Positions 26,541 through 52,581 of a stretch of 64,000 nt of DNA are shown one piece after another; within the stretch, counting starts at the first letter, position 1; every line of letters begins with the position of its first letter. The notes under the pieces were generated by a model. That model did not search any database. It saw nothing but the letters and a program-made list of their open reading frames with translations, and was not told the origin of the DNA. This DNA comes from Papaver somniferum. Lineage: Eukaryota > Streptophyta > Magnoliopsida > Ranunculales > Papaveraceae. The position numbers were made by a program, and so were the translations under genes. The stretch is taken from positions 66,589,911 through 66,653,910 of the forward strand of contig NC_039360.1 of the NCBI RefSeq assembly GCF_003573695.1, read 5' to 3'.

Positions 26541-26646
26541 GAATAAAAAAGGTTTTGAAAGCACGCTGAACCCAGAATAAAAAAGGTTTTGAAAGCACGC
26601 TGAACCCAGAATAAAAAAGGTTTTGAAAGCACGCTGAACCCAGAAT
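26541..26646 (-). repeat. Tandem 34-bp repeats in element B leader
   Basis: Three near-identical copies of the same 34-bp unit found in A's leader, plus a partial one, between PBS and gag on the minus strand. B's copies are more uniform than A's. Confidence 0.9.
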
Positions 26647-26715
26647 AGGGCACAACCATAATGTGCGTTTAAGGTGAAATCACAGGATAAGATAAATCTT
26701 TTACCGGGACAAAGT

Positions 26716-26735
26716 CCCTATTTCTAGCGCCAAAT
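26716..26735 (-). other. Element B primer binding site region
   Basis: On the minus strand ATTTGGCGCTAGAAATAGGG follows the 5' LTR end directly, with TGGCGC 2 bp inside as in A and C. Confidence 0.65.
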
Positions 26736-30679: not shown

Positions 30680-30713
30680 CCTGGCGAGATTAGGGTATAC
30701 CCAGATTAATTGT
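30680..30713 (+). repeat. MULE left terminal inverted repeat
   Basis: CCTGGCGAGATTAGGGTATA pairs with the minus strand of 52548-52581. It carries a GGGTATACCC palindrome. Confidence 0.6.
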
Positions 30714-30987
30714 ATATAACCAAATTTAAATGAACTAGTGCCCTTACTAAGGGGAGGCCAAAACGTGGTAAAGTTACTTTAGTACCCTGCACTAATTAAC
30801 CTAAAACTAAACCCTAAACTTAAAAACTAAAAACTGTTTAATCTTCCTCTAATCTATCTTCTCTAATCCCTCTCCTCTTCTCCTTCCATCATCTTATTCC
30901 ATCCAACCAAAAATTTTGATTTTGATTTTTTACAAAAAAATGGTTGATTCTGAAAGATCCAGTCGCTAGAGAGATTCAATAGGTAAC

Positions 30988-32022
30988 ATGAAAAGATCCA
31001 AATCAGAGGGAAAAGGTAAGGGAAAAGTTGGAACGAGTAAACCCAAGAATGCAATCCTTGAAGATGCTGAAAAGAAACCTCTACAGGCGAAAAGAAGATT
31101 GTAAGTGATTTCTAAACTCAAACCTGTTATTCTGATGTGTTGTATGATTGTTATATTAGGTTAGATTATCAAAAATTAGGATTTATGTGTTTTCTGTTGG
31201 TAAGGTCGATAATTTAAAACCACGCTGATTGTTGATATTTTGTAAGAGCCGGCATGGTCTCAGGATGAATAACCTTCCGACTTTTCGTAACAGCCATGGA
31301 GACCGTTAGACAATAACCAGGGACGGCAGGGTATAATAACCAACCTTGCCGACTTACGTCTAGTCGGCATTGTCTTAGACTTGTACCTTTCCGAATTTAT
31401 GTCACAGAAACCTTAATTTCCTTAGTTAACCGTCGACATCTTTCTTGTGTAGGACCTTACCGACTGTGTGTTGGTCGGCTTGGTATATGATTACAACCTT
31501 GCCGAGTAAGTATTAGTCGGCGATGTATAGATTCTCGACCTTGCCGACCATATGACCAGAACCATGTTTAAATGTGTAAAAATTTCATATCTTTTATTTG
31601 TGCATTTTTTAGGTTCCCAGAGGAAAAAAAAAAGAGCTACCTTGTCTTGTTAACAATGCAGAAGAGCTATTAGAATTTACTGACGGAATTTATCCCAATT
31701 TAGAAGATCCTAAAGATGAAACTGAAGAGAATTTCCCGGTAAGAAAGTTATGTTTGATGGGTAAGGAAAATCCTGAAGAATTTCTAAGGTTTATGAACAG
31801 TCCTAGCAATCCCCTCAACTATGAAGAATGCACATCATCAGATAAGGAAGAAGAGGAGGTTGATCCAAGAACTTTTTTAGGGCATGTGACTTTTCTGGAG
31901 TGAACCCCTATTACAATGAGGCCGGTGACTACATAGGTCCAGATAAGGGAAAAACAAAAGCTGATGCTGGTGAAAAAGCTAGTGATGTGGAGGAAGATAA
32001 CAACAACAAGAAGGATCCATGA
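30988..32022 (+). pseudogene. MULE accessory gene 1: small charged protein, two exons
   Basis: Exon 1 30988-31100 encodes a Lys-rich start (MKRSKSEGKGKGKV). A strong donor GTAAGT at 31101 and acceptor TTTTTTAG at 31611-31612 bound an intron that contains a palindrome cluster. Exon 2 (31613-32022) encodes an acidic protein (NNAEELLEFTDG, EECTSSDKEEEEVDP, KASDVEEDNNNKKDP, TGA at 32020-32022). Two shifts break it: one at the A10 run (31623-31632), which is one base off, and one near 31880. Function unknown; the mixed basic-acidic composition suggests a nucleic-acid or protein-binding accessory factor. Lack of a homologue in view keeps confidence low. Confidence 0.4.
31248..31555. repeat. TCGGCA palindrome cluster 1 (intron of accessory gene 1)
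   Basis: About eleven copies of TCGGCATGGT-like and ACCTTGCCGA-like sequences alternate, for example at 31248, 31343-31353, 31362, 31454-31464, 31473 and 31537-31548. Forward and reverse copies alternate with 10-30 bp gaps, so many pairs can form hairpins. The cluster lies wholly inside the predicted intron 31101-31612. Confidence 0.8.
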
Positions 32023-32213
32023 AATTCTTAAATTTTATTATGTTTCACTTGGTTTAGAAACTTAGATTGTGGTTTGAACTCGTACATTATGTTTTGAACT
32101 TTTAAATTGTGGTTTTAGACTTGTTAAACCTGACTTATGTTAATTTTCAGTTTCAGTTGCTTTAGAACTTATTCTTTTTTGTGCAGTTTTAGACAATATT
32201 AGAGTTTTACTAA

Positions 32214-32325
32214 GTCGGCATGGTGTGTAAGCTCGACCTTGCCGACCATCCCATGCTTTATGTTATAGTTCTGTCAGGGATATTTAGTCGGCATGGTTTA
32301 ATTCTCTACCTTGCCGACTAGAATG
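32214..32325. repeat. TCGGCA palindrome cluster 2 (upstream of zinc-knuckle gene)
   Basis: Two forward-reverse pairs: AGTCGGCATGGT (about 32214) with ACCTTGCCGAC (about 32238), and AGTCGGCATGGT (about 32286) with ACCTTGCCGAC (about 32308). Each pair could fold into a stem with a short loop. It is in the spacer between accessory genes 1 and 2. Confidence 0.8.
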
Positions 32326-32466
32326 TTAGTAGTATAAAAATATTACTTTTTAGGTACAAAGTACAAGCCATTGAATGCTCAACGGCTATAAATTTCAAAA
32401 TCAATACATTAGGTGTGTTGTTATTATAAAATCATTCTCAACTTCATCTTCAACCTTGCATAAAGA

Positions 32467-32803
32467 ATGGAAGTTTCAAGTGCAACACAACCAAATATTT
32501 GTAGTCTTTGTACACTAAGTGGTCATTTTGCAAACGATTGTCCCTTTGAAGGAATCAAATGTACTATTGAAGGTTGTAAGGGATTCTTATTTCTCATGAA
32601 AGCTGCAGTAGGAGATGTATATCAGCCGTATGCTTCAAAATGCACTTGTTGTGGGTTTTTCTATTGGATAGATGAGCGCCTAGCTCCGTATGAAGATGAA
32701 GTTGCTAAAATCAACCTTCTACCATGCACAGATTCATGTTGCGACGGTAAGATGAAGCTAATTACCTCTCCTAAGAAATTGTGTACCGGAAAAAGATACT
32801 ATA
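32467..32803 (+). pseudogene. MULE accessory gene 2: zinc-knuckle/GRF-like protein, split by the copia insertion
   Basis: ATG 32467. Residues 12-25 form a perfect CX2CX4HX4C zinc knuckle (C12, C15, H20, C25). A Cys-rich segment follows (C32, C37) and KCTCCGFFYWID at about 58-69, which resembles the CGFF.W core of GRF-type zinc fingers, then further Cys (LLPCTDSCC). The copia element enters at 32804 within the codons after KRYY. The natural 3' end lies at 48005-48057, where the frame continues CPKC and stops at TAA 48055-48057, completing a CX2C pair. Such fingers bind single-stranded nucleic acid; the role here is unknown. The open frame past 32803 into the LTR is an artefact. Confidence 0.7.
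32799..32803. other. Left target-site duplication of the copia element
   Basis: CTATA, against CTATC at 48000-48004; 5 bp, one mismatch, exactly at the TG...CA ends of the copia LTRs. Confidence 0.8.
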
Positions 32804-32858
32804 TGTTAGAGCACTGCTCGGTCAAACTCGCATGTGTTACTATCTCAAGCATGTTTGT

Positions 32859-34477
32859 TGATGATACTCAATAATGTTGTAGTAAGATGATTCGTTCACT
32901 CAGACTTGTTGAAATTGTTTTTAGGATTAATAAAGGAAAAACACTAAAAATATACAAATTATGTCACAAGATGAAGAGACGCTGAGACGCGGGATTCCAC
33001 TACTTTTCATATTGTTATGGTTCAATCATTAACTCTAGACAATATAGCTCAAACAAAATAAGTTGTGACTCTAGTTCTTTGCCAAAAATAGATTTCGTAA
33101 AATATTATTTGTAAGTTAAAAGCATGACGCATCTAAAGTATTTAGAACTAAGCATGCGACATCTAACAAAATAACAAATAATTAATAGAAATCATAAAGC
33201 AATTAAATATATGCAAAAAGTCAATAAAAGAATTAATTCATTTACCACAATCATGAAAAGTTGCTTCCTCCGTTGTCCCAGTGATGGGGTCTAGCTCCGC
33301 ATGGTGAAAACACACTCAAAGGATTTTTTCATTGCTCAAAAAGTTGTTTACAACGAGGAAATGGAGAAATAATTCAAAATCGGATTTGTAACAATTATAT
33401 TTGTTACAAACCAGAGAACTACGACCCTCGGATGTGGGTCGTATCGCTGTAGCATATAAGACTGTCCGGCGACTGTTCTATACACTGTAGCATAAACGAC
33501 TGCTTCAATGGCAGCAACAGAGACAATCATTGCAACTCCCGATTCTCTGTTGTATTCTCACCCCTAACTCTCCATCCCCTTCTCTACTTCCACAACTCCC
33601 TTTTTATGCCCAGCAGCGACAAGGAAACACTATAATTACTCCAGAATAATATGCTTTTACTCTTCATGCAAGATACGGGAATTTCTTCCCTCTTTTAATT
33701 CCTCATGCAGCCAGCTTGTGTTTACACCTCCAAACACGTACAATGCAGGGTCGAAGGTCATCGAACTCTTGACAACTCGCCACAACTTCTGTTAACAACA
33801 CAGTAACCCCGGGAGGATTCCCGATATTTTTGTGCCCTGACTTATCCAAACTCGGCGAACAACCTCCCTTCTTTTTCGAATGTAAAGCCATTACCATCTT
33901 CATTTGATCACGACAGGTCATCCTCCAAGAAAAACAACGAGAAAATCTCAAGGAAATCTCTTGTAATCACTTCCAGATATTTGCGTATTTTGCACGTCCC
34001 TGTTTACTAATGATTTTTCCTATTTCTTCGAGTCTAAGACGTGTATCAGTCTGTCTAGCCTTAACAAGCCCAAATACATCCAAATCAGCGACTGAATCTC
34101 AACAAACCACGTACAATTCTGCTCTGGAAAATATCGCAGTGCAAAGAAAACTTCCCGCCAAAATCCATGTTTAAATGGTGAAGATGGATTCCCCCTAACC
34201 AGAGTAGGGGTGCACATAGCCTTGTGTGTAACTAGCTCAGCTGGGGTGAAAATAACAATAAGGTGCCCCTTAGTAATTGAAGTACCCCTTATCCAAACCG
34301 AGAGTCCGAATAGTAGGCGTCCTCCGAGTGCCTTTATCAACTTTTCGAGCCGATTTCTCCAAAAACATTTATTTCCCAAAAATACCTACAAACACATAAA
34401 ACACCGTAATAATTACAAAATCGAGTGCCAACAATATATAGTATTGAGAACAAATTAGACACAAAATGTGTCTATCA
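32859..34477 (-). repeat. Element D 3' LTR
   Basis: 1,619 bp; on the minus strand TGATAGACACATTTTGTGTC to GAGTATCATCA. Compared with the other LTR it has about 50 bp extra near 32965-33010 and lacks about 27 bp near 33500. Confidence 0.9.
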
Positions 34478-35910
34478 AATACCCCCAAACTTATTATTTG
34501 CTAGTCCTCGAGCAAAATTAATCTAGAAAATAAAATCGAGTTATTCTCGAGAGGGTTTACCAGAGGTGTACCCACAAAACCTTGACTTCTAATTGGTCAC
34601 AAGTATCCAAAGAGCTATGAGGACATACATATTCTCAACCTATCTCCAAGTAACAAGAATGCCAGAGAAATTAAAGGTGCCAGCTCTAAAGCTGACTAAA
34701 GAAAAGGGGAGACACATCCGCAACACTGCTAGATAAAGAGATATCCGCTACACAGCTAGATAAACATTGTAAGATGCGTCCGCTGATTTACAACCGGATA
34801 AGATTAGGAGAGAGATAAAGATGAGAGGGACATCTGCTACACAGCTGGACTAGTTACGTGTGATGAGTTAAACCATTGCTAGAAAGATCTTGTGCCAGAT
34901 TGAAAGCGGACTAACAAAGCAACCAAATGTATCTTTCTTCGACTCTCTCATAGTGCTCAGTAGAAACAACGTCTTCTTCGGTCTTCAACTGTTGATGATA
35001 AACTATCGAACCTCATAGAACCTTGACAATTAACTCTTCTCTTCGATTTCTTTCTTGACTTAAAAATTTCTACTTCCCTATGGCCTTATTGAACAAAAAA
35101 CTAATTATAGAACAAAAAGAACGTAATGATGATTTTTTTTTCATTTTTTTTTTCTATTTTGTTTTTCTTCATTTTTTTTTTTTTTTACACAAAAATTTAC
35201 ATGGCCATGAGAGAAGGACTTTAAAAACTTGGATCTTCGCAACTTGTGATGTCTTGGTATCATGAATTCCAACAACTTATATCATTTTCTCTTATAACTT
35301 CTTGTAACTTAGTCTTCAACTTTGATTTTTGAATTATATTTTTTATTGTTGCTTCTAAACCTTAAACGTCTTCAACTTTCTTCATAGATTTTAATATCGC
35401 TCCGCTTGTTGATGATGATAAGTTTCTACTGAGAGAGAGTCGTAATCCAGTAACTAAGACTACATTGTGAGGTTGTTTTGTCTTTCTGGCATTTCTTGAC
35501 CTACTTGCCTTTCCATCATGGATGGTTAGGTCCATCACGGTTACCCTCTAAAAGGAATAAGTTCTCTCCTGAATTTCAAGGATCTCAATGTCTTTTTCTC
35601 AAATGTCTCAATAGATTATTATCTCTAGCATTCCAATTTCTATCTTTTCGGTGAGAAACAGTATGTAAACTTAGCTAACCGGATACCATGTGACGCTAGA
35701 AGTTTCAAAAATGCGACTAAAATACCCCCAAACTTAAATCTAACATTGTCCTCAATTTCTAAAGATAAAATTAAAAGCATGAACAAGGAGAAATTGTTAC
35801 CACTTGAAGCAAAAGAGATAAGGAAACATATTACCGTGTCGCAAGAATATTGGGTTACCTCCCAAGAAGTGCTAAGTTTAAAGTCTTCAGCCAGACATTG
35901 GAAGAATTAG
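34478..35910 (-). other. Element D non-coding 3' region with polypurine tracts
   Basis: Starts at the PPT (minus-strand GTTTGGGGGT, 34481-34490) next to the 3' LTR. A second identical-type tract, minus-strand AGTTTGGGGGTATTTT, lies at about 35720-35736, as seen in elements with duplicated PPTs. A T-rich low-complexity run spans about 35128-35188. Imperfect CACATCCGC...ACAGCTAGAT repeats occur at 34710-34850. No gene is seen. Confidence 0.7.
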
Positions 35911-37650
35911 TCACCTCATAGAATCATATATAAGTAGACGGAATAACTGTGGGTCATCTGGATCAAAAAGTATTACCCACAAGAAAAGGAAACTCCAACA
36001 GACCAAAAAGATACCGAACATACCCTTGTTTAAGACAACTACATCTAGTTGTGGCTCAGGTTCAGGTTCAATAACTGGGTCTAGATAACAGGTTTTCATC
36101 GGTTGGATTTCCTCAAAGCTAAGATCCGGTTCAGGTATTAGAGTCTGGAAAAACTCAACTAAGAACTTAGAAGCACATAACAACAACCTGAATAATTGGG
36201 GATCCTCTAAGTCAATTAGATTTTACTCACACAGTTGACCACGATGAAAGAGGTGGTCTTCCTTAAGAAAATGTGTCGACCCTAATATCCTAAAGTGATT
36301 AGGTTTAGTCTCAAAACTTAATAACCGACACATCTTAAAATCAAAAGTTCCCACAATTGGAAGAAAAATTTTTGGTGGGAAAACAAAGTCAATCTTGGTA
36401 TCATAGCCTAGGTTAACCACATCAACCAGAGGATGGGATTCTAACAACTAAGCTTCTTTCTGGACATCATTAGGTTCGGGAAAATGTGTATGAAGATAAT
36501 CTTGTAAGATTGTTGAGGCACAAATGTCAAGTCCTACAGGAGGGTACTTTCTAAGAGTTAAAGCACACGGAGAATGATAATCACCCCCAAACTTAGAGTT
36601 TTCTGTGTCTCTAGAAAGACTAGTCACAACTTCCCTAATTTCTAGGTCATCAGATTCCTGAAAATGGTCAATTGCTTCTTCTAAGTCTGGTTCATCCTCA
36701 CTCATCTCTACGAGTTTATCTTCTTCTAAGACTAGTGTTTCTAAATCGCTAGATTCTAAAACAGTATTCTCAGGGTAAACTCTTTCCTCTAAACCATCAT
36801 CACAATCATATAAAGGATTATCAGAGAAAGTTTCATATAAAGGCTCATCAACTAAGGTTTTAATCATAGTTACCTCCTCCGATTCACTGATAGGCACATC
36901 AAATAATGGATTATCCAACATATTGCAGGCTAAAGTATCATGAACTACATCGTCTAAAACGGTGGTATCTCTAGTCAAATCCACATCCTTTTGAATAGGT
37001 GAATAATTATTAAAATTATTTGGATTTGTACTAGAAATAACACGATCATTATAAAGCTCAACCGGAGTAACAAATTCCTGATCACTATGCCTACATATTT
37101 CATGTTCTTCATCAATACTATCCTCATCATAATAATCACTATAATAACATGAAAATGATCGAACCTTATCAAAACAAGTAGTGTTACCAATTCTAACCTC
37201 GTCATCTTGATTATGTGAATAAAAACTATCCTTATTTTCGAGGGTGGTATTGGGAAAACTACACTGGAAATTAAGACTATCCTGAGCAAGTTTTTCCACA
37301 ATCTTATTTGTATTCTCAGTAAATTGCTTGAGGGTCTCTTCTAGAGATAACTTAGTTGACCGCTCTACGGACTCTTCTGGGAGAAGAATATTATAAGTAT
37401 CTTTCATAAATAACTTCCGTGCTGACTCATTGAAACTCTTGAGAGACTCTTCTAGAGAAATAGAAGGATTGTTTTGCTCGTATGACCTGTGGGTATGTGG
37501 ATAGTAATTGGGCTCAAAATGGTATGGACCATAACCTTCAAAGGTTTCGCGTTCCCAATCACTATTCACACTATGGTCATAAAAAGGATAATGTCTAAGC
37601 TGCTCAGTCGGATACTCATTGTATTGGCTATTATAATACCAGTTGGACAT
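35911..37650 (-). pseudogene. Element D long open frame of unknown function, two in-frame stops
   Basis: ATG at 37650 (MSNWYYNSQYNEYPTEQL). The first open piece is 400 codons to TAG at 36448-36450, continuing in the same frame to TAA near 36230 and on to 35911, about 580 codons in all. The N-terminal half is Tyr/Asn-rich, with two related stretches SLEESLKSFNESARKLF and SLEETLKQFTENTNKI (an internal repeat). The middle is very acidic. The C-terminal part has a hydrophobic span (FGIFLVCWSFLFLWVILF) and the phrase DPQLFRLL twice. No known gag or pol motif. It may be a gag derivative or an env-like relic. That the same frame is kept across both stops shows it was once a single coding sequence. 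Confidence 0.55.
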
Positions 37651-38700
37651 CCTAACTGCAAGGGAATTCTAAACAAACACAAAGAAGGCTGAGTCGACCA
37701 CAACAAGCCTATTTTATCTAGAAAACAAAAAAGCATGATGGCTCCACTTAGATTGTTTCTAGACCAGCTTCTAATCCTTCGAAAGGGAATTCGTTACAAT
37801 TTGAGCAAACCCCTCTGGAATCAATCCGAGTCAAAGTAAGTTGAATAGAGGCGAGGGAAGCTGCGTAGAGCTTTGATACCCAAGTCCTCATCGTATTACA
37901 AGGCGGCGCAGTCACGCATTCAACTCACAGAAACCATCATGAACTTTGAAGTATGCTTAAAAGAGTAACCAATATTTTTTGAATGACTTTCCTATTAAGC
38001 TCGTTACCCTATCAGTCTCGTTCTAGTCAAAATTTTAGGCTTAGGTTCGCGTAGGTTACGTGTTCCTAAGGCGGGCAAGAAGGAAACGGTGATGAAATCC
38101 GAGTCCTTTTCTTGATTTGGCCAAGCCTTGCCCTTTACTAGAAAATTAAATCCGATTTCAGGTCCTCAACATATAGGCATACAAAATCATCCAGTAAACC
38201 CGCTGACAGGGGATTCGCGGGTGTTTAGAATTCTTACCTCCCGTTCCAGACGGGGGATGAACCGCTGAAGTCGACTCGGGCCACAACTCCAATGTCGTGT
38301 ACGAACCCGAGGGGCCGAGGTGGTATCGTAATCACCGTCCTTCTCTGCAAACAGTTTATTTAAAAGTACCCTTCTGTAGGGTTTTAAAAAAAATAATAAT
38401 AAATAAAAATGTCCAATGTCCAAAAATAAAAATTAATTACAGTTTCTAAAAAAATAAAATAAATAAAAAATAAAATAGAATATATATATACAAAAAATTT
38501 CTTCTTCACTCCTTTTGGATTCCTCCTTTTTTTTTTCTTTGGCTTCGCTTTTGTTTTCAGCACTTTCTCCCCTTTTCTTTAGCTCAGTTCTAAATCTGAA
38601 AGCAAACAAGAAATACCAAAAGGCGTAAAAAGGAACAAATAAAAAAAAAAAAAAACTAAAAACAAATTTATACACAAATCCACGTCGGCGGCGCCTAAAT
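37651..38700 (-). other. Element D leader and primer binding site
   Basis: About 1 kb of leader. Beside the 5' LTR, minus-strand ATTTAGGCGCCGCCGACGTG (38681-38700) resembles the TGGCGCCGTTGCCGGGGA-type primer site of Athila/Tat elements, with several mismatches. A/T-rich low-complexity runs occur at 38380-38480 and 38636-38655. No gene is seen. Confidence 0.6.
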
Positions 38701-40299
38701 TGATGATACTCAATAATGTTGTAGTAAGATGATTCGTTCACTCAGACTTGTTGAAATTGTTTTTAGGATTAATAAAGGAAAAACACTAAAAATATACAAA
38801 TTGTTATGGTTCAGTCATTAACTCTAGACAATATAGCTCAAACAAAATAAGTTGTGACTCTAGTTCTTTGCCAAAAATAAATTTCGTAAAATATTATTTG
38901 TAAGTTAAAAGCATGACGCATCTAAAGTATTTAGAACTAAGCATGCGGCATCTAACAAAATAACAAATAATTAATAGAAATCATAAAGCAATTAAATCTA
39001 TGCAAAAAGTCAACAAAAGAATTAATTCATTTACCACAATCATGAAAAAGTTGCTTCCTCCGTTGTCCCCGTGATGGGGTCTAGCTCCGCATGGTGAAAA
39101 CACACTCAAAGGAATTTTTCATTGCTCAAAAAGGTGTTTACAAGGAGAAAATGGAGAAATAATTCAAAATCGGATTTGTAACAATTATATTTGTTACAAA
39201 CCAGAGAACTACGACCCTCGGCTGTGGGTCGTATCACTGTAGCATATAAGACTGTCCGGCGACTGTTATATACACTGTAGCATAAACGACTGCTTCTTGT
39301 AGTCTTATGTTCTTTGTATGTTCTTCAATGGCAGCAGCAGAGACAATCTCTGCAACTCCCGATTCTCTGCTGTATTCTCACCCCTAAGTCTCCATCCCCT
39401 TCTCTACTTCCACAACTCCCTTTTTATACCCATCAGCAACAAGGAAACATTGTAATAACTCTGGAATAATATGCTTTTACTCTTCATGCAAGATACGGGA
39501 ATTTCTTCCCTCTTTTAATTCCTCATGCAGCCAACTTGTGTTTACACGCTCCAAACACGTACAATGCAGGGTCGAAGGCCATCGAACTCTTGACAACTCA
39601 CCACAACTTCTGTTAACAACACAGTAACCCCGGGAGAATTCCCGATATTTTTGTGCCCTGACTTATCCAAACTCGGCGAACAACCTCCCTTCTTTTTCGA
39701 ATCTAAAGCCATTACCATCTTCAATTGATCACGACAGGTCATCCTCCAAGAAAAACAACGAGAAAATCTCAAGGAAATCTCTTGTAATCACTTCCAGATA
39801 TTTGCGTATTTTGCACGTCCCTGTTTACTAATGATTTTTCCTATTTCTTCGAGTCTAAGACGTGTATCAGTCTGTCTAGCCTTAACAGGCCCAAATACAT
39901 CCAACTCAGCGACTGAATATCAACAAACCACGTCTAATTCTGCTCTGGAAAATATCGCAGTGCAAAGAAAACTTCCCGCCAAAATCCATGTTTAAATGGT
40001 GAAGATGGATTGCCCCCTAACCAGAGTAGGGGTGCACATAGCCTTGGGTGTAACTAGCTCAGCTGGGGTGAAAATAGCAGTAAGGTTCCCCATAGTAATT
40101 GAAGTACCCCTAATCCAAACCGAGAGTCTGAATAGTAGGCGTCCTCCGAGTGCCTTTATCAACTTTTCGAGTCGATTTCTCCAAAAACATTTATTTCCCA
40201 AAAATACCTACAAACACATAAAACACCGTAATAAGTACAAAATCGAGTGCCAACAATATATAGTATTGAGAACAAATTAGACAAAAAATGTGTCTATAA
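38701..40299 (-). repeat. Element D 5' LTR
   Basis: 1,599 bp, on the minus strand TTATAGACAC (second base mutated from TG) to GAGTATCATCA. A TATAAAAA box at 39421-39428 (minus) is intact here and reads CATAAAAA in the other LTR. Confidence 0.9.
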
Positions 40300-42581: not shown

Positions 42582-42593
42582 TGGTATCAGAGC
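42582..42593 (+). other. Copia primer binding site
   Basis: TGGTATCAGAGC lies 2 bp after the 5' LTR end and is the standard complement of plant initiator-Met tRNA used by Ty1/copia elements. Confidence 0.92.
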
Positions 42594-42643
42594 AGGCAAG
42601 CACATTCAAGACATCAAAAGTCTGTGTTTGTGGCGATCTGAGA

Positions 42644-43257
42644 ATGGACGATTTTATCTCTAAGAACGCAACATCAGTTCAGAATCACTTTGATGTGTTT
42701 CAAAGTCCTGAAACCTCTAAGAGAAACTCTGTCTCTTGTCCCTTGTCTGAATCTGCATTCGATTGGGAAAAATCTCTTGATGAACAATTGGATGATTTTT
42801 CAGACGATAGTGATTCAGAAGAAGGGAAAAGTGTTGATGAGGAAGTTGCTCAGTATATCAAGTTGTTTGATCGTGCTTTGAAAGAGAAGAAGTCAATAAC
42901 TTTCTTGAGAAAATACATGGCTCCTCTTTGTCAAGAAAACAGAAAGTTGAGAAAACTCTTTAAAGGATATGATGGTGGGTATAGACTCCTAAAATCTATC
43001 GTTAAAGATCGTGATGAATATTTACGCACAAAAAGGTCTGAATTTGATAATCTTCTCCGAAATCTCTGTTTGTTGAAAGAAAGACTTGTAGATGCTGATG
43101 CAAGATATGACTCTCAACAAAAATGTTTTAATGACAAAGAACTCAGTCTCCTTGCCAAAGAGAAATCTTTGGAAACTGATCTTGCTGCGGCTCTTGATAA
43201 AGTAAAATCACTGGAAGATAATCTGAGAAGGTTCAATTCGAGCTCTATCAAATAATC
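42644..43257 (+). CDS. Copia element gag-like frame, N-terminal part
   Basis: The likely start is ATG 42644 (MDDFISKNATS); the open frame extends upstream into the LTR, but that part is not coding. It has an acidic stretch (FSDDSDSEEGKSVDEEV), then a long helical region with heptad-like Leu/Lys spacing (EKSLETDLAAALDKVKSLEDNL), ending at TAA just before the next frame. This is like the coiled-coil N-terminal part of Sirevirus-type gag. A stop then separates it from the nucleocapsid-like frame 43262-44035, which is probably one original gene. Confidence 0.55.
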
Positions 43258-43261
43258 TTAT

Positions 43262-44035
43262 ATGATTGGAGCATGTAAAGAACATCGTGACATACGTGGT
43301 CTGGGATATAAAGTAATAGATGCTCCAAGAACAAGTAAGATCAATTTCATTAAAGCTATCGAAAATTCCTCATGTGAAAAACTGCTCGCAGCATGCAATA
43401 TATCTAAAGGCAAGGATTTTTCTCCCTCTAAATCGACTCGCATAAAAACAGGCAAACCCTTGAACTGCTATTACTGCGGAAACAAAAGATATCTTGAGCA
43501 GAAATGTCGTTATCGGATTAGGAATGAAAAACTTCACACCATTCTTGCATGGTTGTCTAAGGAAGTTATTAAACCTGTCCCTCATGTTGTTGGGCCAAAT
43601 ACCAGTTTCTACAATCAAACAAGACACCATAATAAGTGTTTTCTTAATTGTGATGTTGGATCAAAAAACGCCAACAAAGGTAGGAGGAAGAACAACAGCA
43701 GAGCTACTGACTTCCTAAATAACTCTGAAAAGATAAAAAGGCATAGAAAAAGAAGGGTAAAATCCTTGTCTCGTCCTGAAAAAGAATGTGATTCCAAGAC
43801 TGATCTAAACTTTATGCATATTAATAATCGAGTTACAGAACTTAAGGTCAGCGTAAACAAACTCAAACGGGGCATCAAAAAGACTTGGATAGCAACTGGC
43901 TCACGTATTTCGAGTTCCTCTCTTGTTAAACCTTCTTCAAATATGATGTGTTATTCCTCTCTAGATTCCCTTAAAGGAGAAGAAGTCAATGATGATGAGC
44001 CAAATGCTCATCTTAAGGTTGCATCCCTCTTTTAA
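43262..44035 (+). CDS. Copia element gag-like frame, nucleocapsid part with altered zinc knuckle
   Basis: Lys/Arg-rich protein of 257 codons. CYYCGNKRYLEQKC (about residues 69-82) has the spacing of the gag CX2CX4HX4C knuckle, but His is Tyr, so zinc binding is doubtful. Basic clusters follow (KGRRKNNSRATD, KIKRHRKRRVKSLSR). A second coiled-coil-like part is RVTELKVSVNKLKRGIKKTW, which is where pol-encoded integrase would normally begin in an autonomous element. No integrase residues are present. Confidence 0.55.
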   Translation: MIGACKEHRDIRGLGYKVIDAPRTSKINFIKAIENSSCEKLLAACNISKGKDFSPSKSTRIKTGKPLNCYYCGNKRYLEQKCRYRIRNEKLHTILAWLSKEVIKPVPHVVGPNTSFYNQTRHHNKCFLNCDVGSKNANKGRRKNNSRATDFLNNSEKIKRHRKRRVKSLSRPEKECDSKTDLNFMHINNRVTELKVSVNKLKRGIKKTWIATGSRISSSSLVKPSSNMMCYSSLDSLKGEEVNDDEPNAHLKVASLF

Positions 44036-46112
44036 ATAAGAAGGATGCTCTTTGTTCTCAAGATGCGTTTCTTGAGAAAGTTGGCAGAAGTGTATTATTT
44101 TTTTTTGGGGTTTATTCTTCTCGAGTCTCTTGTCCATTCCCTTCATCCCTTCGTACACGCACCGGACCCATGCGAACGCCTTGGTTCCTAGGGTTTTTAG
44201 AATTCTCTATGAATTTTATGTTCCATATAGTCAAAAGATTCTATTGAATTCTTTTTGTGGGTGAACAATGGATGGAAGCAACAAGGTTGATGAATTCAAG
44301 CAGGACAAGACCAGCGAATTAATTGATGTCTCCATAACATGCTTTCATGTTGTTGATCATGAGAACAAACTACCAGTTCAAATGTCTTCACAACTGGTAG
44401 GAAATCTTCTTCATGACTTTGAAGTTGTTCGTGAGCATCTCGGGATTGCAATAAGGAATCTTGACTTTCTAAAAAACGAACTAAAGAAGGAAACTGATGA
44501 ACTTATCCATGTTCAATCTCTAGTTGTTGACAGTGTTTAAGAAGTCTTAAATCAAGTGTCTTGTGTTTACTTTTGTTGCCTAGTATGTCTTATTTTTGGC
44601 TTAGTTGGAAGAATAACTAACGCTTTGAATAGCAATGATTGTGACTACACATAGCTATTATTTTTCATCTTCTTGTTTTTAGGTTTTTTTATTTAAATTC
44701 TAAAACTTTTTGGAGGATGATGTTTTGCAGTATTTAATCTTTATGATTTGTTATATTGCAATTTGATATGGGATATTGGTGTTTACGTCCGTGAACTATG
44801 TTGTCCCATATTTTTTCAAAAGTAGAGTCGTTCATGATCGGTATTTGTTTATTGGTTTAAGAATGAATAGACTTTTGACATATACAAAAGTTAAGCCTAT
44901 ATTGTCAATCTTTGACGGAAGATAGGTTAAAATCTTTTGTATCCAAGGATTATTGCTATTGTATATGCTTGTGAAAAAGAATGAATCCTTGTGTATTACA
45001 CGGTATTGATCTTCATTGATCCATCCTTTTTGTATTACCGTGAGGCTCCGTAATGTGTCTTATGTTGAGCATGATACGACAAAGTTGATTATATTTTATT
45101 AGCCTTGTTGGTTGTTCCGTAATACTTTATGTTGAGCATATTAGAACTAAATTAATCATCTTGTTGGTTATTTAGTTATTACTCCACAAGTTTCTCTTGT
45201 GTTGAGTATATGAACGATTAAGCCAATCACTCTTTTGTATGATTAACTTAGTCGTTGCTCCGTAAGTTTACTTATGTTGAGCACAATGAATTAAATTGAT
45301 CACTTTTGTGTTTAATTTGATTATGTATTCCAATTAAATTAATCATGGGTTTACTTATGATTAATTTGATTGAGTTTTGGATATAAAAATCATTCTCATG
45401 GTTTTGGTGTCCAATAAAAATCATTCTTTTCTCTTGAAATTAAGGTCGCTCATTGTTGTTCTTTCGAGAATGACATCAAATGGGGGAGAGTTCTTTTGAA
45501 CTTGTGTTTAATGGTCATATCTTGAGGGGTGTGTGGCTGTGGAATTTTAGAGGGGTTATCTTATATCTTTAAACTCCTTGACGAATGTTGTTATCTTCGG
45601 CTATATGATTGCATCTAAATAAGATGGTGTGTGTTTCTTTCTCTCAGTCATGAAATGTCTCTTACGGAAATTTCATTGTGAACCCGTTCTTGTACCTTTG
45701 CCAATTTTGTTGACAAAAAGGGGGAGAATTAATATTTAGTTCACACTGCAAATACATATGATTTTCAGATCACTGTGTAAGGGGGAGTGGTTTTCATGTG
45801 AGATGGAGTATTGACTAAGGGGGAGTGATACATATCACCATAATATTATTGTTGAAGTTGTGATACAATTGAGCTTTGACATTGTGTAATAATATTATGG
45901 CACTGTATAACAATGATCGAGACCGATGCTTTCTCATTGTTATAGCTACGGATCTTCAACAACGATGGTGCTAAACTTACAACCTTTGGGATCATTGGAG
46001 TACTTGGAAGTGACGAAGATTTCGAGGAATGTTGAAGATTAGACATGTGGAATAGGAGCTACTAAAGTTTCATTATCTTTTTTGTATTACATATGTATTG
46101 ATAGTTTTTGAC
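44036..46112 (+). other. Copia element non-coding region with multiplied polypurine tracts
   Basis: About 2 kb without pol. A 90-codon frame at 44268-44540 (MDGSNKVDEFKQ) shows no recognised motif. From 45470 on, AAGGGGGAG-like tracts recur: about 45479, 45718, 45778 and 45817, before the functional one at 46113. Such multiplication is a described Sirevirus trait. Repeats of TTATGTTGAGCA-type phrases occur at 45060-45300. Confidence 0.65.
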
Positions 46113-46124
46113 AAAGGGGGAGAT
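46113..46124 (+). other. Copia polypurine tract
   Basis: AAAGGGGGAGAT directly abuts the 3' LTR start TGTTAG at 46125. Confidence 0.9.
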
Positions 46125-47999
46125 TGTTAGAGCACTGCTCGGTCAAACTCGCATGCGTTGCTATCTCAAGCATGTTTTTCAATGTTAGTGATCAAAACTA
46201 TAAATCTTGATTTCTAGTCTCTTATATCTAAGTCTCGGACAAGGATAATAAGTGTAGTTGAGCTCAAGGACTTTATGGTGATTCATCATACAAGTAAAAG
46301 GACTACTCAAGGAACCGGTGGAACTTCTCGACAAAAAGGTATGTGGAAACTTGAACTTATTTATCACTCAAAAGTCTATCTATTCTATCTCCTACTCTTT
46401 GAGACGAAAGTCGTATGCTATATATATAGACTAGATCATACACATTTGGTATTTCGAGCCGAGTATACCTCGCCTATCTATATCTCGAAATATGTGTTGG
46501 TAAGATTTTCGCTTCGACCAAGTTTATCTTTACCCAGTGACGAAAGTCATGAATGTTTCAATCACTTTGAAAATTGCTTTGACGAGAAATGGTGTAACAA
46601 CTATATAACGTCCTCTAAGAATGTTTCAATTATTGGAATGAGATTTTAGATTACATAACCAATGTATTCCTTGAAACGAAGTTCTCGAACTTTGTTGATC
46701 AAGAGAACCGGAAGTATAGCAAGTTCCAAGTCCGCGAACTCAGTCCGCGAACTGCCGAAGTTCTCAAACCCGAGAATTTCTGCTGGAGTTGACAAACTAC
46801 TTGCGTGAGCCAAGTCCGCGAACCCAGTCCACGAACCCAGTCCGTGAACCGGCGAAGTTCTCAAACCCGAGAATTTCTGCTGGAGTTTGTAAACTCTGTC
46901 CGGTGTCTTAAGTCCGCGAACCTAGTCTGCGAACTTGAGAAGGTTTTATATCTAAAGATGATCTATGAACTTAATCTTAAACTATTAAGGAATGCTTTTG
47001 CAAACCGTGGCTATTGAAGTTCATGAACTGATTCTTGTGAATCAAATCATCTTTGCTTCAATTGTGTCTTGTGTAGTTACATAAGATTTCCTTGCAATTG
47101 AACAACTCTCTTAACTAGTTCATTTGAGTCATTTGAATTAGTTAAGGTGAAGAAGAATATGGTTGGTATGAAATGCTCTTATGGTTAACCTTTTTGGTTA
47201 ACCTAGAAGCGATCAGTCATTTGTGTATGACAAGCTAAGTTTTCGATCTAAATGTTGAGAAATATTAGCTTGAATCTAAATCAGGTTTTTATCTAACGGT
47301 GGATATTGATTGCTTTGTAACTAAGGAAAAACCCTGATTTGAAAGACTATATAAGGGGACATCTAGCAAATCTGCAAAACTAATCCCCACACCTTACGTG
47401 TGCTACTAGTTTGCGTGCTAGAGTCGGTTCTCCTTTAACCTTTGGTTTTCTTCTTCTAAAACCAGGTTAACGACTTGAAGACTTCATTGGGATTGTGAAG
47501 CCAGACCGATACTACATTTATCGTAGTTGTGTGATCTGATCTTGCATCTTCTATCGTAATAGTACAATCATATTGATTGGCTAGAGATTGTTTGATTTCT
47601 CTGATAGGCAAGATATAAAAAGTAATCACAAACACCTTCGTATCATTGTTATTTCAGTTTCCGCATTATATTGTTTATCTTTATAATTGAAATAATACAG
47701 GTTGTGCGTGTAGATCATCAATTGGTATAATCCAACCTTTGGTTGTTTGATTGTCATTGATTGATCCTTGGACATTTGTCTTTGGTACCGTCCAAGTTAT
47801 TCCTTGTGTTTGATTAGGACTCGCTGATTTCTATTAGCTTGAGTAAATCAAAACAAATGAAAGATATTAACTCCTTGAGATACTTTTACCTAGATTGAGT
47901 CTGGCTGTCAAGTTGATTCTCTAGAAAGTATTTCGGAGTTAGTCCATATAGATTACTAAGCGAAATATTGGGTGGTGTTGTTAGACCCCCGCTTTTTCA
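46125..47999 (+). repeat. Copia 3' LTR
   Basis: 1,875 bp. Against the 5' LTR it lacks about 505 bp near 47655 (joined within GTTATT) and about 45 bp near 47199. It also has a tandem duplication of about 125 bp at 46725-46870, which multiplies the AGTCCGCGAAC motif. Confidence 0.9.
46728..46935 (+). repeat. AGTCCGCGAAC repeats in the copia LTR
   Basis: At least six copies of AGTCC(G/A)CGAAC with GGCGAAGTTCTCAAACCCGA spacers, plus TGTCCGGTG. The 5' LTR has fewer (40853-40955). This is a CpG-rich island in an AT-rich LTR. Sirevirus LTRs of grasses are known to hold conserved CCGG-type palindromes; whether this is the same motif class is inference. Confidence 0.7.
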
Positions 48000-48004
48000 C
48001 TATC

Positions 48005-48057
48005 TATGTCCCAAATGTGTTAGGGTTAAGTTTTTAACGTTTGTATGCTTTAATTAA
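48005..48057 (+). pseudogene. MULE accessory gene 2, 3' end after the copia insertion
   Basis: Continues the frame of 32467-32803 with CPKC and ends at TAA 48055-48057. The joint across the 5-bp duplication keeps the frame, which supports both the insertion model and the gene model. Confidence 0.6.
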
Positions 48058-48122
48058 GGTTTGTATGCTCTAATTAAGTTTCAAAAGTTTTTTAAGTTTT
48101 TAAGAATCCTTGTATTCAATGT

Positions 48123-48480
48123 TAGTCGGCATCATACTAAATTCAAAGTGTGTCTAGTAGTCGGTAAGCAGAAGTCTATTAACACTGCTGGCGTACGTAT
48201 AGTCGGCATGGTTTTCCTCATCAACCCAGCCGACTACAATGGGTGAGGAACATCCAGGAACAAATTTTTTTGTTCTGTTTTGATCGGCATGGTTGTCCTC
48301 ATAAACCATGCCGACTAAAAAGAAGCCGACATTGTAGGAGGGAAACAACCTTGTCGACCGTTCCAGGCCTTTTTCCCTGTGCTGTCATGCAGTGCAGCCG
48401 ACAACCAGACAAATTTATAACTTTCCGACTCTTGGAAGGTCGGCAGGGTCGTGTGATAAATACAATGCCGACCAAAGGAG
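48123..48480. repeat. TCGGCA palindrome cluster 3 (between accessory gene 2 and the transposase 3' end)
   Basis: About a dozen forward and reverse copies, for example 48131 (GTCGGCATCATA), 48211 (GTCGGCATGGTT), 48283 (ATCGGCATGGTT) with 48306 (ACCATGCCGAC), and 48448 (GGTCGGCAGGGT) with 48465 (AATGCCGACC). It sits between the converging genes. Confidence 0.8.
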
Positions 48481-48598
48481 TATACACCAAAAAAATCACA
48501 TCCATTTTATTCACTTATAGTACTCCAAAGTACATTACACAAAACACGAATGCGATTACAAAAGTACTCCAAAAAGATTCCTTAGTTCCTAACCATAA

Positions 48599-51500
48599 TC
48601 AATCATCACTCAAATCTATTGGAGGGAGTTCATTCAAATCTATTAAACCTGCTTTAGTCAAATCTATGGGACATTCCCTAAACTCATCTAAAACATTCCA
48701 AAGGTACATGTTGTCCTCATAAAGTTCCACCCATTCCTTGCTCTTGTTGTTTATGAACTTCTCTCAAAAACTAAACCTACAAAGAGGAGGTAATGGACAT
48801 TCCTTATTGAGTTGTAGACCAATAAAATGATTTTTATCCACCAAAGCCATAACAATTCTTCTATTCTTGAGTTTTTCCACACAAACCGCATGTTTCGGTG
48901 CAAATGATATAGATAGTCCTTTACTAAAAAAATGTACCACGCATGACCACGTATCCGCCAATAGATGGCCACACTCCGACATTCTCATCCAATGCTCCCA
49001 TTTGATCGGTGCATTTCCCTCCGGGCCTTTAACACTAGTAAGAAATTCTTTAAAAGCGCTTTTTTGTCCTCCATCGAACCTTCTAGCATCATTGAGATAT
49101 GAAACTCCTTGTCTTTTTCTAGTCGGGCGGCCATCTTCTTTCTTATGTATTGGAATTGGGTGAGATTCTCCTCAACCGCTCTACTTAGGTGTCCCAATTG
49201 TTGCGAGACAACGTGAAACCCACAATTTCCATATTTTGGATGTCGTCGGTACCAGTAACGAACTCTTGAATAATTTGAGGGAGTTGTATGCGATACTCTT
49301 GCAATACCGGTTGTACTACCTTCCTTGGACGACCTCTTTTCTTCGCAACATCTCCTTGGCTTGCTTGACTCTCAAGAGGTAGAGTGCCATTTGGATTCAA
49401 GTTTGATACCGTTGGTGTAGTTGAATCCTTCCTTGGCCGACCCCTTTTCTTTCCAAAAAATTCCACACTTTCTTGACTCTCAAGAAGTGGAGTGCTATTT
49501 GGATTCAAGTTTGAAACCGTTGGTGTAATTGTTTCTTTCTTCGGACGACATCTTTTCTTTTTAGCCGGCTCCTCCTTGTATTGCGCCTCGGTATAAACAT
49601 GTTCGGATTGACTGCATTTTGTACTCAAATACACTTTAATTTGTTCCTTTTCTTTCGCCCTCGTCTTTGTGGTAGGTGGTCTACCACAAGGATCTTGTTT
49701 CGCCGGTTCTTGAAGTTCTTCCATAAAAGGGTAAACAATCGGCATCAACTTGTGCTTCATAGTTTGTTTTTCCAACCTATTCAACTTGGGGTACTTTTCG
49801 AGGATTATTCTCCCAAGTTCCATGTCGCCAAACTCTTCGCCGGGATCTTCTCTTGGAGCCGGTTTGAAAGATAGTTGCTTCCAATACAGATTGATATCTT
49901 CAAGAGGAATGGGAGTTTTATACCTACCAAGCATATGACGACATGGAAGTCCGATAGCCTTGATTATCCTACACTTACAAGGAGTGCTCGGCTTGTCATA
50001 CTTTTGATACAACTTGAGATGTTTCATCATAAAACGTATTTCCCAATGCGAGACGTTGCAATGTATACCAACAAGCAACCAATTATCCTCCTTAAACTCC
50101 CTCAACTTCCGGAAGCTACTTTCTTGGAATTTCTTTTTTATCTTGTTGATATCATTATTAGTGTACTCATGGATAGCATGTTGCACCGTCACAATCCCAT
50201 TTTGACTTTTGAAAAGTAGACCTTTTAGTCTCCCATGAGCTTGCTCTACCATACTTTTGGATTCAAGTTTGAAATGTTTATAGTCGTAAATTAAAGCATA
50301 CACAAACCTCTCTTTGTGTGGCCTCAACCATTGTTTCTTGCAATATTCCTCTACTTTGGGGTAATTAGTCCCCCACTCATCCTCGAACTCCTTCAAGTTT
50401 ATCTCGTATCTTGCAACACTCATCGACCAAACCACCTTATCCCACGTTTTCATGAATAACCCAAACTTGATCTCACCTTCTTTCCATTCTTCGTCTTCTT
50501 TCTTTTTCTCTTTCTCTCTCTCCTCTTTAGTTAGTTTACTAAGACGTTCATCTTCCTCCTTTTCACGTTTAATGCCTTTCTTTGCCTTTGGCTTTTGGAT
50601 ATGATTCCTACAATTCTTTCTAAGATTGCATTTTATATGCCAAGCGCAAAGAAAATTTTGTGCATTTGGAAAGCTATCCTCACGGTGTTCATTACTGCTT
50701 GCTCATTGTCGGTCACTATAACCCTGGGAGTCTCGTCTTCGTAGTGGAGAAGCTTCAAAGTTTCCAATGCCCAAATATATCCATCATCCTTCTCACGATC
50801 CATAAAACACCATGCCACCGTGAACGATTGCTTATCCGAGGTTTTTCCTACAATGTTCAACAAAGGCATGTTGTACCTATTCGTCTTATAAGTACAATCC
50901 ATGAACAAAACTTGGTAAAAGCAACGCGCCAATTGAATCATATCGGGATGCGCAAGAAAAATACGATCCACCAAGCCCTCCGATGACTCACGGTGTCTCA
51001 CTGTGTAGTTGTATTTGTGTACTAACCATTGTGGTTCTTCCATCACCTTTCTTCCATCCCATTCAATTCTTTTGATAGTTGCCTTGGCCGCATAAATTGT
51101 ATACAATGAAGAGAGGTTATTCTTGTCATCCCTCTTGAACTTATTAAGGAGCTTGCTTGGTTTAATTCCCCAACTTATTCTTACTTGTTCGAACTCGTGC
51201 GGTTTCAACTTGGAAAATTGACAATGCCCAACAAGAGTTTCCGGATCTTTATGGTGATGCCAACCAACATCAAATCTATTCATTCTCCACACGTTATCGG
51301 TTTATTTGTTCCTCCAAAATATAATCTTGAATAGGAATCCACACTTCTTTGACTTCGTCTTGTACATCCTAGTTGTCTTCTTATCATACACATAAGCCTT
51401 TCTCTTGTGACTTGCGTCCGGCGAACCATAACACTCGAATACCATTTCAAACCGCGTATCTTTTTGTTGGGTATTTTTCAGTAGAGCGCACATCTTCTCT

Positions 51501-52280
51501 TTTGCTTTCTCAACAATCCAATTGACCGCGTCGTTTTTTTCCTCCCATTCCAAATCATTAGCGAAGTGTGCGGAAGTATCAGGACCCCTAATATTGTGAG
51601 ATTGAGGTTGATCCGTCATCGGTACCAATGCAACAATCTACAAAACATCAAAAGTTAGTTGATATGTATTACCAAAGTCGGCAGGGTCGACATATAAAAC
51701 AATACCGACTACAAAATACTCGGCATGGTAGAAAAATTAAACAGTTCCGACCGAACTATACTCGGCAGGGTCTACGTATCCACTACAATGCCGGCGTAAG
51801 CATTTTCAAATCACGACTCCTGTGTTGCAAAAAAAAAAACTGGACGTCGGCAGGGTTCAAATTTTCTACCTTGCCGATACGGGTACTGCTCATGAAAAGT
51901 CGGCACGTTGTTCAAATATAAACCAAGCCGGCGCTTAAGGTCAGCATGATCGACAAGCGTCGATCTTGCCGACCCTGGGAAGCAAAAGTGAAAAAAAAAA
52001 CAAAATCGATTATTTGCATGGAAAAATCACAATCTTCACCACGTAGGTTGTCTACCTGATTACTTGCAGCTCCATTCTCTTCTTCTGGTTCATTGGATTC
52101 TACGTTTGGCTCAAGATATTCATCACTTCCATAGCCATCTTGAGTTCGAGGAAAATAAAAGTGAGGATCATGCATGTAATCCATTTGATCATGATTTGGT
52201 AGGTCATTATACAAGTACTCATCTGTAGGAGGAAAGTTAGAAGACTCCCCCACTTCAAAATCAGGATTAGAATCACTCAT
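48599..52280 (-). pseudogene. MULE transposase with FAR1-like, MULE, SWIM, AT-hook and OTU-like protease parts
   Basis: Exon 1 52280-52056 (acidic, MSDSNPDFEVGESS), intron 52055-51638, main exon 51637-48599. Domain order: FAR1-like zinc region (KAYVYDKKTTRMYKTKSKKCGF, about 51420-51330); MULE catalytic core with FMDCTYKTN and VTDNEQA (about 50910-50695) and the CxWHIK block (about 50650); a charged insert; SWIM finger PCKCRIIKAIGLPCRHM (about 49982-49934); three AT-hook-like motifs (KKRCRPKK, KKRGRPRK twice, 49562-49320); OTU-like protease with GNCGFH (Cys codon 49222-49224) and NHF (His codon 48827-48829). Breaks: TAA at 51302-51304, a 1-bp deletion near 50670, a frameshift near 49235 just before GNCGFH, and TGA at 48764-48766. 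It would bind the terminal repeats and cut the element out; the protease role is unknown. Confidence 0.88.
51652..51990. repeat. TCGGCA palindrome cluster 4 (intron 1 of the transposase)
   Basis: About twelve copies, for example AGTCGGCAGGGTCGAC (51677), CTCGGCATGGT (51719), CTCGGCAGGGT (51760), CGTCGGCAGGGT (51846) with ACCTTGCCGA (51868), and GATCTTGCCGACC (51963). All lie inside the intron 51638-52055. The variant TCGGCAGGGTC is commoner here than in cluster 1. Confidence 0.8.
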
Positions 52281-52307
52281 ATCACAAATTTCACAAAAAC
52301 CCTAATT

Positions 52308-52326
52308 CCCCCCCCCCCCCCCCCCC
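52308..52326 (-). repeat. 19-base C run (G run on the transposase strand)
   Basis: An uninterrupted homopolymer 27 bp upstream of the transposase ATG, in its 5' untranslated region or promoter. The true length may differ because such runs are hard to sequence. Confidence 0.85.
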
Positions 52327-52547
52327 AAAACTTCCTCTACTACTTCATTCTCTTTCTTACTCTCAATTATTTCCAAATCCACTCATATAAATCAACTAAC
52401 TAATCTAATTAATTTAACTAATCTAATCATTTCAATTAAATTAGTGTTAATCATTACATGGGCAATTTTGCCATTTAGAAAATACAAGGATAAGGGGTGG
52501 CTTCTTTTACTTCATAATGACTTAGCTTTTGTCTCATTAGGTATACC

Positions 52548-52581
52548 CCAATTAATTTGGACATACCCCAATCAAACCAGG
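52548..52581 (-). repeat. MULE right terminal inverted repeat
   Basis: On the minus strand CCTGGTTTGATTGGGGTATG, followed by a second GGGGTATACC-type block further in. It pairs with 30680-30713. Confidence 0.6.

Follow-up and report, generated by a model that had tools for sequence, protein, structure and literature searches.

Arrays of inverted 14-bp half-sites in the non-coding DNA of a poppy MULE: a possible docking platform for an anti-silencing protein

A MULE of Papaver somniferum carries 36 copies of a 14-bp half-site, RGTCGGCAWGGTNK, identified with a 14-mer matrix and gathered in four clusters. The pattern is genuine and, within the window (the whole 64-kb stretch of DNA analysed here), confined to the non-coding DNA of the MULE. 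An earlier note had described 35-40 copies of a motif of about 11 bp in four places; the copy number and the four clusters hold, but the unit proves to be an inverted pair of 14-bp half-sites. Very probably, to judge from their sequence, the arrays are bound by a protein, and there is a near-even chance that they form a docking platform that keeps the element from being silenced, by analogy with the VANC system of Arabidopsis. This description of the arrays is based on one copy of the element.

The host element and the distribution of half-sites

The MULE holds a transposase with PF10551 and two accessory genes having relatives, an autonomous-type gene set whose reading frames are damaged. Its protein relatives come from Papaver. 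The features, in window coordinates, are as follows.

30673..52589, no strand assigned: host MULE, ends approximate, from end-versus-end BLAST with a MULE transposase domain inside
30988..31903, + strand: accessory gene 1, two exons, from a splice test and the relative P0006
31247..31549, no strand assigned: array 1, with 11 half-sites, inside the accessory gene 1 intron
32213..32319, no strand assigned: array 2, whose 4 half-sites make 2 dyads, upstream of gene 2
32467..32804, + strand: 5' part of gene 2, an ORF with the relative P0001 and a zinc-knuckle profile match
32804..47999, no strand assigned: nested LTR retrotransposon, from self-BLAST repeats, edges read from the sequence
48201..48473, no strand assigned: array 3, with 9 half-sites, in the spacer that separates gene 2 from the converging transposase gene
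48764..52280, - strand: transposase gene, from ORFs with Pfam PF10551 and PF21056 above cut-off
51676..51974, no strand assigned: array 4, whose 12 half-sites make 6 dyads, within intron 1 of the transposase gene (51638-52055)

The two ends of the MULE form a weak terminal inverted repeat (30673-30712 and 52549-52589; 32 of 41 positions match in a BLAST of the two ends), placing the right end at about 52589. Accessory gene 1 encodes a short protein with a basic start and an acidic end, 131 aa long on the splice tested, and P0006, from Papaver somniferum, is 71% identical to it over 70% of the query. Its intron (31101-31620) has GT..AG borders and is the only tested splice that leaves more than 100 aa open. 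The product of gene 2 is small and cysteine-rich with a CCHC zinc knuckle that profile comparison matches weakly to the zinc knuckles in solved structures; P0001 (126 aa) shares 86% identity with it. Gene 2 is cut by the nested LTR retrotransposon, which spans 15,195 bp and is itself split by another LTR element. The transposase reading frame is broken into several ORFs that encode a MULE/ZSWIM RNase H-like domain, a SWIM-like cysteine motif recognised by eye, and a tail of AT-hook-like repeats for which the Pfam AT_hook model scores just under cut-off. An OTU-like protease domain suspected at the end of the transposase received no support from Pfam. Structure prediction gave a mean pLDDT of 32 for the gene 2 relative and of 43 for the transposase relative P0003, which makes both models unusable.

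The half-sites lie in the four locations proposed by the earlier note and avoid exons and nested elements as it had stated. At a threshold of at least 12 bits, the MULE has 35 hits in its non-coding DNA (2,638 bp) and none in its coding DNA (3,867 bp); the 15,195-bp insert (taken as 32805-47999) contains none, and the 42,077 bp of the window outside the MULE contain 3. These compartment counts leave out about 220 bp of uncertain status, set the right end of the MULE at 52596, and begin the insert at 32805, one base inside the edge read from the sequence. No half-site lies inside the terminal inverted repeats. Because the original matrix had been trained on the same 36 sites, it was rebuilt with one cluster left out at a time. 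At 11 bits or more, these matrices recovered 33 of the 36 half-sites (10/11, 4/4, 8/9, and 11/12 in arrays 1 to 4), against a chance expectation of about 0.11 derived from the hit rate of the same matrices elsewhere in the window.

The dyad pattern was also sought in other sequence collections, where it matched 9 stretches in viral_contigs and 71 in genome_contigs. Across these 80 loci (612,805 bases), the phased alternating runs of hits at 12 bits or more number 52, all of length two, compared with a longest run of 6 in the window; we read the loci as chance single dyads. In viral_contigs, 24 stretches matched the pattern for gene 2 relatives and 1 matched that for transposase-core relatives, and no relative was confirmed in either search.

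Dyad geometry, spacers, and folding

The unit of the arrays is a dyad of about 35 bp in which two inverted half-sites stand about two helix turns apart, the 36 half-sites resolving into 17 pairs and two lone copies. The alternation of orientation that had been claimed is borne out at 30 of 32 within-cluster steps, a value equalled by 1 of 200,000 permutations. Spacing is similarly regular, with 25 of the 32 steps measuring 19-23 bp (sixteen of 21, five of 22, two of 20, and one each of 23 and 19) and a mode of 21. The longer gaps show modest phasing at 10.5 bp (R 0.60), and higher values at 10 and 9.5 bp.

Such regularity could also be left behind by an old tandem or satellite-like repeat that has since diverged and has no function. 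The units at 48201 and 48282 do have an inner spacer in common, inner-spacer similarity reaches 70% or more in 4 of 136 unit pairs, and stretches of 18-42 bp match between clusters. Against this, the half-sites have been kept (72-73% identical) while the spacers of the 21-bp pairs resemble each other no more than their composition predicts: identity is 0.353 versus a predicted 0.322 for the '+-' pairs (n=9) and 0.259 versus 0.304 for the '-+' pairs (n=7). A satellite would repeat head to tail with its spacer included, but Tandem Repeats Finder (TRF) reports no array at the four clusters at a score of at least 30, in agreement with the earlier statement that this is no microsatellite. The motif moreover recurs in four separate non-coding compartments and is missing from coding DNA, and a functionless by-product is a highly improbable account.

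The alternating half-sites also create many short inverted repeats, which might form functional hairpins or cruciforms, or give rise to small RNA that silences or serves as a decoy. When the clusters were folded, as the earlier note had advised, all eight array segments folded better than shuffled sequences (z -2.6 to -6.0), but coupling from arm to arm was absent. In the 17 pairs, true partner arms pair at 9.41 of 12 positions versus 9.56 for shuffled partners (p 0.84), and at 8.82 versus 8.92 when Watson-Crick pairs only are counted (p 0.76). Folding of the arrays thus follows from the repetition of one motif, and the idea of hairpins as a selected feature finds no support; a structural role is the least probable of the explanations considered. 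No Rfam family reaches its gathering cut-off in 30300-53000. Mostly unrelated spacers, the lack of a TRF array, and uncoupled partner arms point instead to a protein, perhaps a dimer, that reads duplex DNA.

A putative docking platform and the VANDAL analogy

Binding sites for a protein, one of the readings offered previously, are thus the best account of the arrays. The four arrays would give a sequence-specific DNA-binding protein a platform with many docking sites. Most likely it would bind as a dimer, with the two half-sites of a head-to-head pair about two helical turns from each other on the same face of the DNA. The sequence suggests that this binder is probably encoded by the MULE itself, the candidates being the zinc-knuckle protein of gene 2, accessory protein 1, and the transposase. 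This explanation is favored because the motif is predictable from one cluster to another, is lacking in exons and insert, alternates with a 21-bp mode, and combines diverged spacers with arms that do not compensate each other. The modest 10.5-bp phasing of the longer gaps and the unusable structure prediction for the relative of gene 2 count against it.

Loaded in numbers on the introns, the upstream region of gene 2, and the intergenic DNA, such dimers may keep silent marks off the non-coding DNA of the MULE and so allow its genes continued expression, in the manner of VANC in VANDAL elements. The earlier note knew of no named feature resembling the arrays, yet a close analogue exists in the VANC target-motif arrays of Arabidopsis VANDAL MULEs, where VANC acts as an anti-silencing protein and both binding and demethylation have been demonstrated (PMC5735166). 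VANC21 sites occur at high density in the introns and the intergenic and terminal non-coding DNA of a VANDAL MULE that carries two genes besides its transposase (PMC5735166), and the non-coding regions of VANDAL elements are a target of RNA-directed DNA methylation (PMC10398659). Anti-silencing is proposed because the placement of the poppy arrays matches that of the VANC21 sites and because of this targeting; as the purpose of the arrays it falls only a little short of an even chance.

The likeness to VANDAL21 and VANDAL6 extends to gene content (a transposase and two further genes), to dense short motifs in introns, intergenic DNA, and upstream DNA, and to their rarity or absence in exons; GC-poor spacers set aside, the poppy motif is also element-specific within the DNA examined here. 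It does not extend to the motif itself, which is YAGTATTAY for VANC21 and AGTTGTCC/AGTTGTAC for VANC6 (PMC5735166). Nor is the geometry shared, as VANC21 motifs have one orientation within tandem repeats (PMC5735166) whereas the poppy half-sites are strict inverted pairs with a 21-bp mode, mostly unrelated spacers, and no TRF array. Provided the library holds both models, no Pfam-A match to DUF1985 or DUF287 (VANC) was found among the ORF pieces and relatives scanned (sets of 10, 8, and 3). The missing VANC domain in these pieces, and the alternation of half-sites in place of a tandem array, count against an anti-silencing role.

In the literature found, MULE anti-silencing through short target-motif arrays is described for Arabidopsis VANDALs; the open-access papers listed for VANC-type or MULE motif arrays include no case in poppy, and those matches listed for letter forms of the half-site look like chance, judging by titles and abstract openings. 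The poppy MULE might hold a second, independently evolved anti-silencing system in which an element-encoded dimer with no kinship to VANC, for which the zinc-knuckle protein of gene 2 is a candidate, reads the dyad of about 35 bp, a tentative and somewhat unlikely proposal. If a comparable array of other geometry does serve this end in an element where no VANC domain was found, it would suggest that transposons evolve non-coding self-recognition codes more than once, and such a code would let an element evade silencing without waking others. Both the dyad and the 21-bp spacing open the way to direct tests and could provide a new sequence-specific tool for the removal of DNA methylation.

Host factors and transposition as alternative roles

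The binder could instead be a host transcription factor. The reverse strand of the half-site, ACCWTGCCGACY, contains the CCGAC core of CRT/DRE elements, and TTGCCGACAT is the reported preference of barley HvCBF1 (PMC5609105), so that recruitment of CBF/DREB might make the element stress-responsive. The exact RCCGAC core is present in 20 of the 36 half-sites, and some have the TTGCCGAC context (PMC5609105), but 16 lack that exact core, and the GGT end, which lies outside the CRT core, is equally conserved (exact in 24 of 36, its T in all 36). The poppy motif is also longer, with dyad symmetry and an array form, and CBF/DREB binding leaves the fixed-spacing dyad and the placement in introns and between converging genes unexplained, making it an improbable function.

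Binding by an element-encoded protein might alternatively serve transposition, if the arrays were occupied by the transposase or by a helper resembling TnpA that pairs the ends of the element. CACTA elements such as En/Spm and Tgmt* have subterminal units of 10-20 bp, direct and inverted, that are capable of forming palindromes (4 + 24 repeats giving 14 possible palindromes in soybean Tgmt*) and are the presumed targets of a protein that the element itself encodes (PMC2613891, PMC8978399). TnpA is reported to bind these repeats and to be required for transposition, and the activation of Spm by TnpA goes along with demethylation; as TnpA is tied to both processes (PMC10398659), a double role may be envisaged here as well. 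The poppy units are likewise inverted, and the nearer MULE end is about 570 bp from array 1 and 615 bp from array 4. However, arrays 2 and 3 are internal, beside the insert and between genes, and the terminal inverted repeats hold no half-site. A role in transposition is unlikely, if less so than host-factor binding. By its transposase domain the element is a MULE and not a CACTA transposon, the ends found by BLAST do not start with CACTA, and its half-sites occupy introns and internal spacers besides positions near the ends.

Inverted motif pairs in the non-coding DNA of one MULE

All of the motif evidence comes from one element copy, whose layout is as follows.

~30673-52589: host MULE, with weak terminal inverted repeats (32/41 positions)
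~32804-47999: nested LTR insert that splits the MULE
31247-31549: array 1, 11 half-sites, in the intron of accessory gene 1 (GT..AG borders)
32213-32319: array 2, 4 half-sites, upstream of gene 2
48201-48473: array 3, 9 half-sites, between the converging genes
51676-51974: array 4, 12 half-sites, in transposase intron 1 (GT..AG borders)

The earlier note had described an alternating motif of ~11 bp in four places of this MULE. The copies, here termed half-sites, are captured by a 14-bp matrix (consensus RGTCGGCAWGGTNK) built from 36 sites that fall into these four clusters. Position 4 is C and position 12 is T in 36/36 sites, and position 5 is G in 35/36. At a threshold of at least 14 bits, 29 matches lie inside the clusters and 0 in the rest of the window; simulated sequence yields 0.75 matches per 64 kb. 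As the matrix was trained on the 36 sites themselves, it was rebuilt four times, each time without one cluster, and at ≥11 bits these matrices regained 33/36 sites versus ~0.11 expected. At ≥12 bits, MULE non-coding DNA contains 35 matches in 2,638 bp and MULE coding DNA 0 in 3,867 bp (~220 bp of uncertain status being excluded from both classes), while the nested insert contains 0 in 15,195 bp and the window outside the MULE 3 in 42,077 bp. The motif is thus absent at this threshold from the exons and nested elements, as first claimed. The 5-mer TCGGC/GCCGA alone displays a like contrast (9.9 per kb versus 0.7-0.9).

Orientation switches at 30/32 neighbour steps within clusters, bearing out the alternation seen at first, and this was matched by 1/200,000 permutations. 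Read as '+ then -', 34/36 half-sites form 17 head-to-head pairs, and the unit of the arrays is therefore a dyad of ~35 bp; the two unpaired half-sites are both '-' and lie 69 and 71 bp past a preceding '-' site. Steps of at most 23 bp make up 25/32 (16 of 21 bp, 5 of 22, 2 of 20, 1 of 19 and 1 of 23). Since 21 bp corresponds to two helical turns, both half-sites lie on the same side. Longer gaps show only modest phasing, with an R of 0.60 for a period of 10.5 bp, 0.77 for 10 bp and 0.84 for 9.5 bp, so long-range phasing is not claimed. TRF found no array at the clusters, in agreement with the view that they are not a microsatellite. A pattern scan of prokaryotic and viral contigs, uninformative for plants, returned 80 loci with phased runs of at most one pair.

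Of the four array regions, only the two introns are CpG-rich, with observed/expected ratios of 1.08 and 1.35 versus 0.64 for the region upstream of gene 2 and 0.87 for the one between the converging genes; the ratio is 0.20-0.80 in coding pieces, 0.77 in the window and 0.66 in within-array spacers. The half-site CG is retained in 35/36 copies, and sites without it are harder to detect. The CpG pattern is given little weight as evidence.

Half-sites, spacers and hairpins

Half-sites are 72-73% identical, while the inner spacers of the 16 pairs at exactly 21 bp are no closer than composition predicts: their likeness is 0.353 versus 0.322 from composition in the nine '+-' pairs, and 0.259 versus 0.304 in the seven '-+' pairs. 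Sequence matches of 18-42 bp link the clusters, with one more inside cluster 3. Some local duplication within the arrays is likely, because inner spacers are ≥70% alike in 4/136 unit pairs and units 48201 and 48282 have the whole inner spacer in common.

Hairpins had also been proposed, and the arrays do fold (8/8 segments, z -2.6 to -6.0). Inverted copies of one motif necessarily fold, however, and true partner arms pair at 9.41/12 positions versus 9.56/12 for shuffled partners (p 0.84). This comparison gives no sign of compensatory change between partner arms, and the proposal is not upheld. The missing arm-to-arm match, together with unlike spacers between similar half-sites, fits a protein that would read each half-site in duplex DNA, with selection acting on the half-site and not on the spacer or hairpin.

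The half-sites could instead serve a host factor, as the motif's other strand is partly a CRT/DRE site. The exact RCCGAC core occurs in 20/36 half-sites, and the reported preference of the barley factor HvCBF1 is for TTGCCGACAT (excerpt of PMC5609105), but 16/36 half-sites have no exact core, and a set of host-factor sites appears quite improbable. The GGT end is exact in 24/36 half-sites.

Proposed anti-silencing role and comparison with VANDAL and CACTA elements

By analogy, the arrays most likely serve a putative protein that would dock as dimers on the dyads, and the docked dimers would keep the non-coding parts of the MULE unsilenced. In the open-access literature searched, the nearest tested precedent for such an arrangement is VANDAL21/VANC21 in Arabidopsis. 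VANC21 recognises YAGTATTAY in vitro; it is located on introns, on intergenic DNA and on terminal non-coding DNA, targets dense motifs and strips methylation. VANC6 has other motifs, and VANC proteins contain variable regions with tandem peptides (PMC5735166). The poppy MULE is laid out similarly: besides its transposase it has two small genes, and its arrays occupy four non-coding compartments. Its transposase tail contains tandem peptides that differ in number from those of the relative P0002 (by eye, for one peptide distinct from the AT-hook-like units, 1 copy in the window versus 4). RNA-directed methylation targets the non-coding parts of VANDAL elements (excerpt of PMC10398659), which would explain the non-coding placement of the arrays. 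VANDAL-clade elements are found in Brassicaceae, with terminal repeats that may be short or absent (excerpt of a MULE survey, PMC6446971). Assignment to a VANDAL/VANC system is not made, as DUF1985 and DUF287 gave no match in the ORF pieces scanned and the motifs, one-directional there, alternate in the poppy MULE.

In their inverted-pair form the arrays resemble the repeats of CACTA elements, among them soybean Tgmt* with 28 repeats and 14 palindromes (excerpts of PMC2613891 and PMC8978399). Assignment to CACTA subterminal repeats is not made, since the transposon belongs to the MULEs and arrays 2 and 3 lie in its interior. TnpA serves transposition and is also linked to demethylation (excerpt of PMC10398659). 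Given this dual activity and the distance of arrays 1 and 4 from the MULE ends (~570 and ~615 bp), a double role in transposition and anti-silencing is possible by analogy.

Genes of the MULE and neighbouring repeats

Four protein relatives of the transposase piece were found, 4/4 named Papaver somniferum. P0002 is 87% identical over 37% of the query and P0003 38% over 85%; P0004 and P0005 match short transposase parts only and contain other domains. Accessory protein 1 has a relative in P. somniferum (P0006, 71% identity over 70%). These matches suggest a poppy, or a plant close to it, as the host. Gene 2 (32467-32804) is truncated by the nested insert, and its relative P0001 from an ENA contig (86% identity) is uninterrupted at 126 aa. 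Gene 2 displays a CCHC zinc-knuckle pattern (by eye) with additional cysteines, and its profile resembles zinc-knuckle chains weakly (best E 0.0013). The transposase tail carries AT-hook-like repeats slightly below the Pfam cut-off; a 108-bp tandem repeat there (49319-49560; 1.9 copies by TRF, 81% by self-BLAST) codes for AT-hook-like units, of which P0002 has three. The gene 2 knuckle and these tail repeats are candidate features for the putative binder. The transposase end (48764-49371) may resemble an OTU-type protease domain; Pfam scans did not support one, and the quality of the predicted P0003 model was too low to decide.

The retrotransposon that cuts gene 2 has a second LTR element (32858-40297, repeats ~32858-34475 and ~38700-40297) inside its own left LTR, so that three layers are nested. 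Its right LTR contains short tandem 13-bp units of the AGTCCGCGAACNC kind (46729-46850), and similar units are visible in its left LTR (~40850-40970). Elsewhere in the window, 3108-10262 and 20022-27196 (~7.2 kb each, 96.5% identical, inverted) are probably two facing copies of one element.
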